Source of the DNA: Verrucomicrobiota bacterium
GTDB lineage: Bacteria > Verrucomicrobiota > Verrucomicrobiia > Chthoniobacterales > Terrimicrobiaceae
DNA length: 64,000 bases
Reading direction: 5' to 3'
Assembly (NCBI GenBank): GCA_017305195.1
Contig: JAFKMU010000040.1
Location: 62,001 to 126,000, forward strand
Shown here: positions 8,087-12,943 of the stretch, piece by piece
Position numbering within the stretch: position 1 is the first letter of the stretch
How the letters are laid out: each line of letters opens with the position of its first letter
Made by a program: the position numbers and the translations under genes
The notes under the pieces: generated by a model
What the model was told of the DNA's origin: nothing
Seen by the model: only the letters and a program-made list of their open reading frames with translations
The model's database searches: none

Positions 8087-8284
8087 CTAAAGTTCCGCGG
8101 GATTCCGTCTGACCGCAGCCTTCCGGGACATATCATCCTTGAAGGCGCAGGTTTTGCAGCCGCTGCTTTTCACGCCGCACGCACCGCAGCAGTCAATACG
8201 ACCGCGATGCCGTATCATTCGCCAGATCCACCAGATCGAAACCAGCAGGCTGGCCGAGACAAGGATTGCATCCAACAGATTCAT
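8087..8284 (-). CDS. FeoB-associated Cys-rich membrane protein
   Basis: A 65-residue protein: one N-terminal transmembrane helix (residues 5-24) followed by a cytoplasmic Cys cluster (CCGACGVKSSGCKTC). This matches the FeoB-associated Cys-rich family found downstream of feoB in many anaerobes and facultative bacteria, thought to assist Fe(II) uptake. It overlaps the feoB stop codon by ATGA (start 8284), so it is translationally coupled as the last gene of the feo operon. Longer frames upstream on this strand are inside feoB and are shadows. Confidence 0.9.
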   Translation of the reverse strand: MNLLDAILVSASLLVSIWWIWRMIRHRGRIDCCGACGVKSSGCKTCAFKDDMSRKAAVRRNPAEL

Positions 8285-10392
8285 AGGAACAACGAGGTAG
8301 TCTGATAGACCGCCACGGCGGCTACCCAGGCCAGGGCGGTCATGTAGACAAAAGTGAGGACGGCATAACGGGCGCCCACTTCCCGGGCAATGACCACCAG
8401 GGTCGATGAGCATTGCATGCAAAAGGCAAAGAAGACCATGATGGCGAGGGCGACCGGGAGAGTAAATACGGGCTGGCCCTTGTGCGGACCATCCGGCCAG
8501 CGCTCCGCCCGCAGCGCATCAGCGAGGGCGCCATCGGAGTCCTCCACGTCGCCGCCGAGGCGGTAGATGATTCCCAGGGTGGAGACGATCACCTCGCGAG
8601 CCGGGAAGCTCGCCAGGACGCCGACAGTGATCTTCCAGTCAAAGCCCGCCGGGGCAAAGATCGGCTGCAGGGCGTGGCCCGCGCGACCGAGGAAACTCTG
8701 CTCGATCTGCTCGGCCTGCACGACGGGATCTGCACCTTCCTCATGGGCTCCCTGCTTGTGCGGGAAGTAGAGCAGCGCCCAGATGATCACGCTGATCACC
8801 ACAATGATGGTACCCGCACGCTGGAGGAATTCCTTCCCACCCATCCACATGCGCCAGAGCACGTCCTTGGGGACAGGGAACCGGTAGGGCGGCATCTCCA
8901 TGATGAAGGGCTGGCTCGGCGTCTTGAAAATGAAACGGTTGACCAACCAGGCCAGGGGCAGGGCCACGAACAACCCGAGCATCTGCGCCCCAAAGAGCGT
9001 AAGCGACGCTGCCCCGACACCCCATACCGGCTCGATAAAGGCTCCGATGAGCAGCAGGTAGACCGGGAGACGCGCCGAGCAGCTCATCAATGGAGCCACC
9101 AGGACGGTGACCAGCCGGGCGCGGGGGTTCTCGATCGTTCGGGTGGCAAAGATGCCCGGGACCGCGCAGGCGTAGCTGGAGAGCAGCGGGACAAAGCTCT
9201 TTCCGTTGAGCCCGCACCAGCCAAACAGCTTGTCCATGAGGAAGGCGGCGCGCGCCATGTAACCCGTGTCTTCCAGCAGGGAGACAAAGAAAAAGAGGAG
9301 GAAAATCTGCGGCAGGAATACGACCACGCCCCCCGCTCCGGCGATGATGCCGTCGCAGACCAGCGATTGAAACACCGGGACCGGGGCGAGGAAATTTCCA
9401 ACGACTTCACCCAGCCAGGAAAACAGCGAATCGATCAGATCCATCGCTGGCCCCGACAGCGTGTAGATGGCCTCGAAGACCAGGAACATCAGACCCGCGA
9501 AAATCAGCAGACCGAAAAACCGATGCGTCAGGATCGAATCGATGCGCCCCGTCATCTGGATCTGGGCATGATTGTCCGCCCGGGTGACACCATCCAGGAG
9601 TTCGGAGATGAACTTCTGGAAAACCACCATCTCGACGGAATACGGATCGGCGCCCTCCTCCCGGATCGGCGCCCGTCCCTTTTCCACGAGCTCCTTGCGT
9701 TCACCATCGGGGCATCCAACGAGATCGAGATAGGACGAACGATGATCAAAGAGTATGCGGCGGAGTTCCGCATCGGAGAGATGGATATTGGTCTTGAGCT
9801 GATGCCTCAGGACGTTAGTCGCAGCCTGCACATACTCCGGCCACTGCGGAGTCCGCAGAAAAACGGGAGTCTCCAGGCACTCCCCGATCGCGCTATAGAG
9901 TCCATCCAGCCCCTGCCCTTTGCGGGCGGAGATCGGAATCACCGGCACGCCCAGCCGCTGGCTTAGGAGCGTCGCGTTCACCGCCTGGCCCGAGGCGATC
10001 ACCTCGTCCATGAAGTTGAGCGCGATGATCAGCGGAACCCCGAGGTCGGCAATCTGGCAGGCCAGTTGCAGGCTGCGAGCCAGTTGGCGGGAATCAACCA
10101 CGCAAATGGTGAGATCGGGGATCTCTTCACCGCGACCGGAAAGGACATCGGAGGAGATTCGTTCGTCGGGCGAACTCGCCGCCAGCGAGTAAGAGCCGGG
10201 AAGATCGAGAACATTGATCTCCCTGCCATCGAGGATCATGCGCCCCGATTTCTTGGCGACGGTGACGCCAGGATAGTTGCCGATACGCTGGCGGGACCCC
10301 GTGAGGCGGTTGAATAACGTGCTCTTGCCCGTATTTGGATTACCGATAAGCGCGACAGTCGCGATCCCGGTGGCAGCGCGGCGATTTCCCAT
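8281..10392 (-). CDS. feoB: Ferrous iron transporter FeoB
   Basis: A 703-residue inner-membrane Fe(II) transporter with an N-terminal G domain. The G1 loop GNPNTGKST, G3 DLPGSYS, and G4-type NFMD are visible within the first 135 residues, followed by a linker, then a polytopic membrane domain with two gate-like repeats (e.g. LPQIFLLFFFVSLLEDTGYMARAA and PREVIVSTL-like FPAREVIVSTL). Length is within the usual range for FeoB. It follows feoA by 8 bp. Fourth gene in an operon that starts with two radical SAM proteins, an uncommon arrangement. Confidence 0.97.
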   Translation of the reverse strand: MGNRRAATGIATVALIGNPNTGKSTLFNRLTGSRQRIGNYPGVTVAKKSGRMILDGREINVLDLPGSYSLAASSPDERISSDVLSGRGEEIPDLTICVVDSRQLARSLQLACQIADLGVPLIIALNFMDEVIASGQAVNATLLSQRLGVPVIPISARKGQGLDGLYSAIGECLETPVFLRTPQWPEYVQAATNVLRHQLKTNIHLSDAELRRILFDHRSSYLDLVGCPDGERKELVEKGRAPIREEGADPYSVEMVVFQKFISELLDGVTRADNHAQIQMTGRIDSILTHRFFGLLIFAGLMFLVFEAIYTLSGPAMDLIDSLFSWLGEVVGNFLAPVPVFQSLVCDGIIAGAGGVVVFLPQIFLLFFFVSLLEDTGYMARAAFLMDKLFGWCGLNGKSFVPLLSSYACAVPGIFATRTIENPRARLVTVLVAPLMSCSARLPVYLLLIGAFIEPVWGVGAASLTLFGAQMLGLFVALPLAWLVNRFIFKTPSQPFIMEMPPYRFPVPKDVLWRMWMGGKEFLQRAGTIIVVISVIIWALLYFPHKQGAHEEGADPVVQAEQIEQSFLGRAGHALQPIFAPAGFDWKITVGVLASFPAREVIVSTLGIIYRLGGDVEDSDGALADALRAERWPDGPHKGQPVFTLPVALAIMVFFAFCMQCSSTLVVIAREVGARYAVLTFVYMTALAWVAAVAVYQTTSLFL

Positions 10393-10400
10393 ATTTTCCC

Positions 10401-10706
10401 TTAAGCAGCAATTTCGTCCTCAATCTCGACCAGCCGAGCCTCGGCTCGCCGGAGACAGAGCAGACACCCCGGGATCTTGATCATCAGCGGATCACCCAGC
10501 GGAGCGGAGCGAACAAATTGCAGAGCGCAGCCCGGGACGAGCCCGAGGGACATCAAGCGCTGTCCCATGCCCTCATCGTGATGGATGGCGGTTACCTTCG
10601 CCTGCTCGCAGGGAGCCAGGTCGTTCACCGTGCGACGGCGCTTCGGGTTTTCCAAAGCCGACGGGGGAACGGCTGGTTCCGTATTATGCTGCGAGCGTTT
10701 CTTCAT
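10401..10706 (-). CDS. feoA: FeoA-domain protein
   Basis: A 101-residue cytosolic SH3-like accessory protein for FeoB. The FeoA domain spans roughly residues 26-98 with the typical GMGQRLMSLGLVPG segment. A charged 25-residue N-terminal extension precedes it. The ATG at 10706 lies inside the end of the upstream radical SAM gene (23-bp overlap), which suggests coupling; the longer frame starting at 10784 is further inside that gene and less likely. Confidence 0.93.
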   Translation of the reverse strand: MKKRSQHNTEPAVPPSALENPKRRRTVNDLAPCEQAKVTAIHHDEGMGQRLMSLGLVPGCALQFVRSAPLGDPLMIKIPGCLLCLRRAEARLVEIEDEIAA

Positions 10707-11856
10707 CGGTAAGGTAACAGCCGGGATCAGTGGCCCATGGGTCGTTATGCACCTGCGCGGCGCGAACCCGGAAGCCGCCGCCACAGACTTTTTGGAATCT
10801 GCACGATCCGCAACGACCTTTCAATCTCGGCAATCGATCCCGAAGGCCGGTGAGAAGTTCGTCTTTGGAGTTCGTCCAAATCTCGCTGAAACGGCGGTCG
10901 CGCACGTTGCCGATCGTATGGGTCTGCCAGAACTGGTCGGGGTGGACATTGCCCTGGCTGTCGATGTTGGCGATGCCGACGCCCGAGCTGTTGGCTCCGC
11001 CGCCGTTCCACTGCATGAGCTTGAAGGCATCCTCGGCGCGAGAGGGATCCTCCTCTTGAAGACGAAGGTAGAGGTAGGCCCCATCGGCAGGCTGATCCAC
11101 GGTGAGCACCTCGCGCTCAATCCCTTTACTCTGCCAGACCTTGATCCGGTCGAGGATCTTGTCGAGCGCCATGCGGGTGCGCTCCGGCTCGACGAGCTGG
11201 AGGTTCGATCCGCGACCGCTAAAGACGAGGTGGTAGAAGCATACGCGCGGGATGTCGTAGTCCTCGATGAACTTCAGGACATTGTCGAGGTCGTCGATAT
11301 TGTTGCGGGAAAGCGTGAGGCGGAGGCCGGATTTCTGCCCGATCTTCTGGCAGTTCTTGAATCCCTCCACGGCACGCTCGAAGGCTCCGACGCGTCCGCG
11401 GAACTTGTCATGCACCTTGCCGATCCCATCGAGCGAGATGCCGACGTAGCGGCAGGACATCTGGCGGAGGCTGAAAACCGCCGGGCGCGAGAGCAGCGTG
11501 CCATTGGTCGAAAGGGTGAAGGGCAATCCCCGCTTGGCGGCATACCGGGCCAGCGAGAAAAAGTCCTGCCGGATCATCGGCTCGCCGCCGGAAAGAAGCA
11601 CGGCGGGAACTCCGAAATCGGCCAGATCATCAATGACGCCCTTGCATTCCTCAAAGGAAAGCTCGCCGTCGTAGTTCTGGTTGCACGAGTCCGAGTAGCA
11701 ATGCATGCAGGAGAGATTGCACCGGCGGGTGATGTTCCATACGACCACGGGACGACGTTCCCGGGCGGAAGCAAAGGGCCGATGATGACCGGTGCCGTAA
11801 CGCAAGCCGTCGGCCGGCTGGCTGGCCCCGAGATAGAGACGGGTGAGATTGATCAT
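10684..11856 (-). CDS. Radical SAM/SPASM protein, AhbC/NirJ-like
   Basis: A 390-residue radical SAM enzyme. The 4Fe-4S/SAM motif CNLSCMHC gives C46, C50, C53; a C-terminal SPASM-type cluster region contains CGSCRFQKVCGG and further Cys near residue 380. The N-terminus (MINLTRLYLG..LRYG) and overall sequence resemble 12,18-didecarboxysiroheme deacetylase AhbC/NirJ proteins of alternative heme or heme d1 synthesis; this is recognition by eye. It overlaps the upstream radical SAM gene by ATGA (start 11856) and feoA by 23 bp. No siroheme pathway genes are in the window, so a tetrapyrrole role is unproven; iron- or peptide-related chemistry is also possible. Confidence 0.82.
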   Translation of the reverse strand: MINLTRLYLGASQPADGLRYGTGHHRPFASARERRPVVVWNITRRCNLSCMHCYSDSCNQNYDGELSFEECKGVIDDLADFGVPAVLLSGGEPMIRQDFFSLARYAAKRGLPFTLSTNGTLLSRPAVFSLRQMSCRYVGISLDGIGKVHDKFRGRVGAFERAVEGFKNCQKIGQKSGLRLTLSRNNIDDLDNVLKFIEDYDIPRVCFYHLVFSGRGSNLQLVEPERTRMALDKILDRIKVWQSKGIEREVLTVDQPADGAYLYLRLQEEDPSRAEDAFKLMQWNGGGANSSGVGIANIDSQGNVHPDQFWQTHTIGNVRDRRFSEIWTNSKDELLTGLRDRLPRLKGRCGSCRFQKVCGGGFRVRAAQVHNDPWATDPGCYLTDEETLAA

Positions 11857-12890
11857 TCCTGCGGTTTGGGTTGGTAGGTGCAGAGAGGTTCCTCGGCGAA
11901 CGGGTCGCCGCGAAGAGCAAAGGCGCGGGCGCGCGATCCGCCGCAAAGCGTGCGATAATCGCAGCGACCGCATTTGCCCTTGAGCGCGGTGGGATTGCGC
12001 AGGGAACGGAAAAGGGGCGACTCGCGGTAAATCTGAAGCAGCGGCAACCGGCGAACGTTACCTGCGGAAACCGGCAGAAACCCGCTCGGGCAAACCTCGC
12101 CGCGATGCGAAACGAAAACGAATCCGCGTCCGTCATTGGTTCCGCCAACATGCGGACGCTCCAATCCGGCGCGTTCGGCCTGCTGGAGCTGGATGCGGCG
12201 ATATTGTGGCGCCTCCGTGGTCTTGATCGCGAAGGGAACCCGGCGGGAAAGCTCGCAGAGTTTGTTCAGGAGCGCCTCGGCCTGCTTCGGCTCTGGCAGC
12301 TGATAGACATCCGCGCGACCGGTCGGCACCACCATGAAGATGCTCCAGACCGATGGCTTCAGGCTCTCGACCAGAGCCGCCATCGCGTCGAACTCCTCAT
12401 AGTTCTGAGCCGTGATGGTCGTATTGATCTGAAACGGAATGCCCGCCTTGCGCGTGGCCTCGATGCCCTGCATCGTCCACTCCCAGGCGCGCTTCACACC
12501 ACGAAAGGTGTTGTGCGTTTCCTCCGTGGCCCCATCGAGGCTGAAGGACAGGCAGGCGAGCCCGGCCTCGGCAAGAGCTTCAAAATCGAGGGCCAGCATA
12601 TCCGGCGTGGCGCTGGGGCTGAGGGCGACCCGCAGGCCGCGACTGGCGGCGTGGGCGACGAGTTCGAGGAGGTCCGGCCTCCGGGAGGGATCCCCTCCGC
12701 TGAAAATGAAAAACCGTGGGGCGATGTCTGCTACGTGGTCGATGAGGGTCCGGGCTTCGTTCGTGTCCAGTTCAAGCGGATCGCGCTTGGGCTGGGCCTC
12801 CGCACGGCAGTGAGTACAAGCCAGCCGGCAGGCCCGGGTCATCTCCCACACGACCACTTCCGGGCGATCGCAGTAAGAGATCCAATTCAT
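11853..12890 (-). CDS. Radical SAM/SPASM protein, TIGR04053-like
   Basis: A 345-residue radical SAM enzyme with CRLACTHC (C21, C25, C28) and a C-terminal CGRCDYRTLCGGSRARAFA SPASM-like motif ending with Cys in EEPLCTY. The pattern GGDPSRRPDL, SLDGATEETH and FVSHRGEVCPSGFLP matches the TIGR04053 family, related to AhbD-type enzymes; its reaction is not established. First gene of the feo operon. The annotated ATG at 12890 is the only usable in-frame start, because a TGA lies three codons upstream, yet it has no well-placed ribosome binding site: the strong one sits 19 bases away and is aimed at an out-of-frame ATG at 12903. Confidence 0.83.
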   Translation of the reverse strand: MNWISYCDRPEVVVWEMTRACRLACTHCRAEAQPKRDPLELDTNEARTLIDHVADIAPRFFIFSGGDPSRRPDLLELVAHAASRGLRVALSPSATPDMLALDFEALAEAGLACLSFSLDGATEETHNTFRGVKRAWEWTMQGIEATRKAGIPFQINTTITAQNYEEFDAMAALVESLKPSVWSIFMVVPTGRADVYQLPEPKQAEALLNKLCELSRRVPFAIKTTEAPQYRRIQLQQAERAGLERPHVGGTNDGRGFVFVSHRGEVCPSGFLPVSAGNVRRLPLLQIYRESPLFRSLRNPTALKGKCGRCDYRTLCGGSRARAFALRGDPFAEEPLCTYQPKPQE

Positions 12891-12926: not shown

Positions 12927-12943
12927 AATAAGTTTTTCTTATT
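12927..12943. promoter_or_regulatory. Candidate operator of the feo operon
   Basis: A perfect inverted repeat AATAAG-(5)-CTTATT lies in the AT-rich stretch upstream of the operon, about 25 bases before the Shine-Dalgarno. Its position fits a metal-responsive repressor (Fur or DtxR type), but it does not match the standard Fur box; binding is an inference. Confidence 0.4.

Follow-up and report, generated by a model that had tools for sequence, protein, structure and literature searches.

Ferrous iron transport genes share an operon with two radical SAM enzymes that probably complete siroheme-based heme synthesis in Terrimicrobium

Heme synthesis by way of siroheme is usually described from archaea and sulfate reducers. 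In Haloferax volcanii, deletion of ahbD impairs only anaerobic growth, and heme rescues the mutant in dimethyl sulfoxide respiration (PMC5746218). ChdC requires peroxide, and its oxygen-independent counterpart, needed for anaerobic growth, was still unknown according to a 2024 paper (PMC10965808). Here, we have analysed a stretch of 64,000 nucleotides (the window; positions 62001-126000 of contig JAFKMU010000040.1, contig C11 of our genome G000) from the 5.1 Mb draft genome of a Verrucomicrobiota bacterium of the family Terrimicrobiaceae, in which the genes of two radical S-adenosylmethionine (SAM) enzymes, rSAM1 and rSAM2, stand at the head of an operon with feoA and feoB. We consider it likely that the operon joins Fe(II) import by FeoA and FeoB to the final, oxygen-independent reactions of heme synthesis from siroheme, which would place a siroheme-type heme route in Verrucomicrobia.

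On the minus strand, from 12890 down to 8087, five genes overlap or almost touch. rSAM1 (11853..12890) is a radical SAM/SPASM enzyme of family TIGR04053 (420.7 bits against a cut-off of 395 in NCBIfam). rSAM2 (10684..11856), whose gene overlaps that of rSAM1 by 4 base pairs (bp; ATGA), is a radical SAM/SPASM enzyme closest to the NirJ1 and AhbC (TIGR04546) models, with 494.7 and 468.7 bits, both under the cut-off of 650. feoA (10401..10706) starts 23 bp inside rSAM2 and is separated by 8 bp from the ferrous iron transporter gene feoB (8281..10392), and the identities of both are clear from profile searches (63.3 bits on Pfam FeoA; 505.5 bits on TIGR00437, exceeding the cut-off of 315.65). The last gene (8087..8284), which overlaps feoB by 4 bp, encodes a Cys-rich membrane protein of 65 residues, as read from the sequence; it is conserved in Spartobacteria bacterium LR76 and matched no family among the NCBIfam and Pfam profiles. 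These coordinates and scores bear out the five-gene block with its ATGA overlap, as well as the TIGR04053-like and AhbC/NirJ-like labels, that the original prediction had put forward.

What rSAM1 could do is suggested by its residues and its relatives. The radical SAM cysteines C21/25/28 (CX3CX2C) are present, as are the AuxII cysteines C307/310/316/337, which meet the AhbD pattern CX2CX5CX20-38C. At the AuxI positions, cysteines are replaced by Glu226, Ser269 and Ser319, and Glu/Ser/Ser at these positions is the pattern of AhbDs in non-methanogenic archaea, themselves putative and biochemically unassayed as of the paper describing them (PMC10452713). In our tree, rSAM1 groups with proteins of haloarchaea, Thermus and Chloroflexi in a clade of TIGR04053 (99/99). 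The TIGR04053 gene of Haloferax larsenii (501.6 bits) stands beside halocyanin and norB, and ahbD of H. volcanii has the same synteny (HVO_2144, 2145, 2147) (PMC5746218), from which we infer that the two genes are orthologs. In rSAM2, the cysteine motifs CX3CX2C and CX2CX5CX21C are both intact, and the residue is AhbC-like in 7 of the 9 columns that tell AhbC and NirJ apart, judged against a small AhbC reference set. In the same tree, rSAM2 belongs to a clade of verrucomicrobial proteins (100/98) distinct from NirJ, with the branching of AhbC, NirJ1 and NirJ not settled. rSAM2 is most likely an AhbC-like 12,18-didecarboxysiroheme deacetylase that converts didecarboxysiroheme to coproheme, and rSAM1 a heme b synthase of the AhbD-like kind without AuxI, which would decarboxylate coproheme independently of oxygen. 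TIGR04053 was named nowhere in the literature searched, and a sequence search of the PDB returned only remote radical SAM enzymes, e.g. PqqE and SkfB.

Profile searches found neither HemH nor HemE over the cut-off in this genome or in two congeners. All three carry a fused siroheme decarboxylase (AhbA-AhbB; on contig C42 of this genome, unlinked to the operon) and a cobA/hemD fusion, which in this genome is next to hemA and hemC. Thus, the earlier remark that no other heme d1 or siroheme gene is nearby is true locally but does not extend to the rest of the genome. Compared with the siroheme decarboxylase motif HXYXR (PMC4145669), the AhbB half has HCYWR in 32/32 homologs, and the AhbA half has the His and the Arg, not the Tyr. 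Among 97 draft genomes of relatives from the order, HemH was found in 12 and HemE over the cut-off in the same 12, while the fused decarboxylase (PF17805) and ChdC were each found in 72, both together in 66 and neither in 19. The adjacent rSAM1-rSAM2 pair occurs in 10 of the 97, and all ten have PF17805 and lack HemH and HemE over the cut-off. ChdC is present in the two congeners and was not found in two of the ten pair genomes (this one and G054), possibly a gap in the drafts. Even in two genomes of 0.9 Mb (G031, G040), cobA, ChdC and the decarboxylase are retained.

A route in which rSAM2 supplies siroheme-derived coproheme to TIGR04053 for conversion to heme would predict that pair-bearing genomes have the decarboxylase and no HemH, and that a genome with TIGR04053 only has HemH. 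We compared 27 genomes, of unstated completeness, from Acidobacteria, Planctomycetes, Chloroflexi, Bacillota, Thermoplasmata and others. Genomes with a pair had PF17805 in 7/7 cases (one weak) and HemH in 0/7; those with only TIGR04053 had HemH in 18/20 and PF17805 in 1/20, and this single genome (L030) is without HemH and still fits the expectation. In three of the seven pairs, the partner is of AhbD or NirJ2 type and not TIGR04053, as assigned by model and residues (L033, L036) or from sequence (L035), and L003, one of the pair genomes, is counted among the relatives of the order as well (as G008). Together with the absence of HemE and HemH and the presence of the decarboxylase, such co-occurrence gives good support to the tetrapyrrole link of the original prediction and makes it more specific, pointing to heme b, not heme d1.

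Gene neighbourhoods were also compared. In Dehalococcoidia, relatives of the pair adjoin a siroheme decarboxylase, and in Syntrophomonadaceae and on a Paenibacillus plasmid, such a decarboxylase shares operons with AhbC/AhbD-type pairs that are more distantly related; the AhbC/AhbD-type genes are found with ahbAB on that plasmid and in L033 and L035, the latter two having other hem genes as well. TIGR04053 stands directly before chdC in a complete coproporphyrin-type hem operon (L026:3847-14534; hemA-hemC-hemD-hemB-TIGR04053-chdC-hemE-hemH-hemY-hemL, read by sequence) and precedes hemY in L006. Other TIGR04053 genes adjoin nitric oxide reductase, nirK, NnrS or ScdA-like genes.

Further TIGR04053 loci were encountered. 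The present genome has a second rSAM1-rSAM2 pair (G000:C25:250490-252719; L001:7491-9720), 54 and 60 percent identical to the first and absent from the two congeners, which is flanked by genes resembling, in sequence, those of nitrate reductase, Rieske, NarK and truncated globin and by an NnrS-like gene, and has another inverted repeat upstream, AAATCAAG...CTTGATTT. In Halobaculum (L143:3778-7059), the surroundings of TIGR04053 include a TIGR04347 pseudo-SAM protein and a small 'rSAM-partnered candidate RiPP' (ribosomally synthesized and post-translationally modified peptide). This pseudo-SAM protein shares 44 percent identity with rSAM2 and might act as the partner on the AhbC side in haloarchaea. 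A TIGR04053 gene is also present in a Campylobacter jejuni plasmid record (NZ_CP029056.1) of only 2,894 bp, possibly a contamination.

Several observations weigh against placing the pair at the end of a siroheme-based heme pathway. rSAM2 is below the curated cut-offs of its nearest families, and rSAM1 scores 315.7 bits on the AhbD model TIGR04545, under the cut-off of 500; the Haloferax TIGR04053 protein likewise reaches only 342.8 bits on that model. The fused decarboxylase scores 57.2 bits on AhbA and 85.9 bits on AhbB, each in the right half, below the curated cut-offs of 140 and 125 for these nearest families. Within the order alone, the association of the pair with PF17805 is not significant (p 0.06), and single rSAM2 genes occur in two genomes with HemH (G011, G013). 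Across phyla, the Fisher p values for pair versus TIGR04053-only genomes (4e-5 for HemH, 9e-6 for PF17805) ignore shared ancestry. Moreover, the pair is absent from 58 genomes of the order that have PF17805 and no HemH; ChdC is present in 54 of these, and nearly all of the 58 are without any AhbC-like enzyme, so that either heme is finished another way in them or the decarboxylase does something else. Gene content suggests that siroheme is the source of coproheme in this order, most of its members using a substitute for AhbC. Such a substitute was sought by clustering the genes around chdC and around the fused decarboxylase; the only recurrent neighbours of chdC were LarE-like and DUF721-like genes (guessed by eye), and no candidate was obtained.

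That most siroheme-decarboxylase genomes of the order have no AhbC-like enzyme would also be explained if rSAM1 were the heme synthase and rSAM2 catalysed a different siroheme-linked step, the AhbC activity coming from a protein shared with the genomes without rSAM2. We consider this unlikely, since the two genes are adjacent, and often overlapping, in all pair genomes, and the rSAM2 homologs in Chloroflexi pairs score best on AhbC.

It is conceivable that a heme d1-like cofactor is the product of the pair, with rSAM2 acting like NirJ on propionates and rSAM1 as a nitrite reductase maturase, as assumed for Thermus 'NirJ'. The score of rSAM2 is near that for NirJ1, its clade joins NirJ with weak support, and the Thermus TIGR04053 gene comes after a nitrite reductase gene and has been published as NirJ (PMC5748679). 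However, cd1 nitrite reductase (PF02239) was not found in the genus, with only weak beta-propeller matches in the order, which makes heme d1 unlikely and led us to reject it for the genus; TIGR04053 also adjoins the copper-type nirK and sits in a plain hem operon, and the discriminating columns of rSAM2 mostly follow AhbC. We regard the heme d1 explanation as highly improbable. The 'nirJ' of a Thermus thermophilus plasmid (L140) itself seems to belong to TIGR04053 and might function in the anaerobic synthesis of heme b, not of heme d1. That the pair are peptide (RiPP) or other maturases with an accidental feo neighbour has a very slim chance of being correct: SPASM families are mostly peptide maturases and precursor peptides were not searched for exhaustively, but the nearest families of the pair are all tetrapyrrole enzymes, no small peptide gene lies between the operon genes, and the pair co-occurs with genes of the heme route.

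The link to iron is real in the layout, as one tightly packed operon is found in three species. The order radSAM-radSAM-feoA-feoB is kept in 3/3 species of the soil genus Terrimicrobium, including the facultative anaerobe T. sacchariphilum NM-5 (PMC5532833) and Spartobacteria bacterium LR76 (contig QAYZ01000016.1) (loci L041, L002/L042). As the same order recurs in the two congeners, the linkage is not due to chance. Outside the genus, the flanks of intact pairs across the order were read and none is beside feo. The concern that the pair is scattered and its feo neighbour coincidental thus holds in half: the pair is scattered, and in most cases feo is not its neighbour, which makes the linkage a feature of the genus, although a degenerate rSAM1 adjoins feoB in another genus as well (L055, L056). 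The promoter region aligns across the three species, including an inverted repeat (AATAAG-N5-CTTATT, 12927..12943) upstream of the operon, which is the sole match in the window (0.01 expected allowing up to 1 mismatch). The repeat is a candidate regulator site and fits a regulated promoter, and the operon may be under iron control.

Related arrangements elsewhere involve NrdG. In L044:1804-3855 (G033), a protein of 683 residues combines rSAM2 with a Crp/Fnr-like regulator domain and is encoded next to NrdG and rSAM1. In two further loci (L055:6792-8174, L056:7493-8506; G059, G043), the gene between NrdG and feoB encodes a TIGR04053 homolog in which the CX3CX2C cysteines are absent, and which would be a decayed or a repurposed relative from the same genus as L044. 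These NrdG links fit an anaerobic setting.

From the gene content, gene order, motifs and co-occurrence described above, we infer the reactions of the pathway, its anaerobic role and the matching of supply to demand as follows. Uroporphyrinogen III would be converted to siroheme by the cobA/hemD fusion and partner enzymes, and siroheme to 12,18-didecarboxysiroheme by the unlinked AhbA-AhbB fusion. rSAM2 would then strip two acetate side chains to give coproheme, and rSAM1, using AuxII without AuxI, would oxidatively decarboxylate two propionates to give heme b. In the two congeners, ChdC could carry out the last step with oxygen or peroxide; as ChdC needs peroxide, the radical SAM pair would be used when oxygen is scarce. 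We argue that feo belongs in the operon because siroheme needs the Fe(II) imported by FeoB and radical SAM enzymes need iron-sulfur clusters, so that shared transcription could match iron supply to the demand for heme and iron-sulfur clusters.

Since TIGR04053 is beside chdC in one hem operon and HemH is present in 18/20 genomes with TIGR04053 only, the family is a concrete candidate for the counterpart of ChdC, which would give a job to a widespread enzyme family formerly without one. In a broader proposal, which we hold to be evenly balanced between right and wrong, many bacteria would have in TIGR04053 their missing coproheme decarboxylase for oxygen-free conditions, acting both after siroheme (with the AhbC-like partner) and after coproporphyrin ferrochelatase (alone), and in most Chthoniobacterales heme would be made by siroheme decarboxylase and ChdC in a hybrid route, with the AhbC substitute connecting the two. 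The comparison also shows that dozens of genomes have an enzyme missing from the route.

The closest described system is the AhbC/AhbD end of the siroheme-dependent heme pathway in methanogens and sulfate reducers, which similarly has two radical SAM/SPASM enzymes and a siroheme decarboxylase without HemE and HemH. The Terrimicrobium system differs in that rSAM1 lacks the AuxI cysteines, its radical SAM proteins are under the curated AhbC/AhbD cut-offs, and their genes are with feoAB and not with ahbAB. H. volcanii, with ahbD and the aerobic ChdC (PitA), has a TIGR04053-type enzyme by synteny with H. larsenii and lacks uroD and ferrochelatase, as here, where ChdC is found in the relatives; in contrast to haloarchaea, Terrimicrobium is bacterial and has an intact radical SAM AhbC-like partner adjoining, in place of the pseudo-SAM protein of Halobaculum. 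NirJ1/NirJ2 and the NirJ of heme d1 synthesis share the superfamily and the SPASM cysteine motif, and NirJ1 is the top-scoring model for rSAM2, but cd1 reductase was not found in the genus and the rSAM2 clade stands apart from NirJ. Finally, the order feoA-feoB-small Cys-rich protein is that of feoAB(C) operons, but with two putative heme-synthesis radical SAM genes at the head, an arrangement observed in a single genus.
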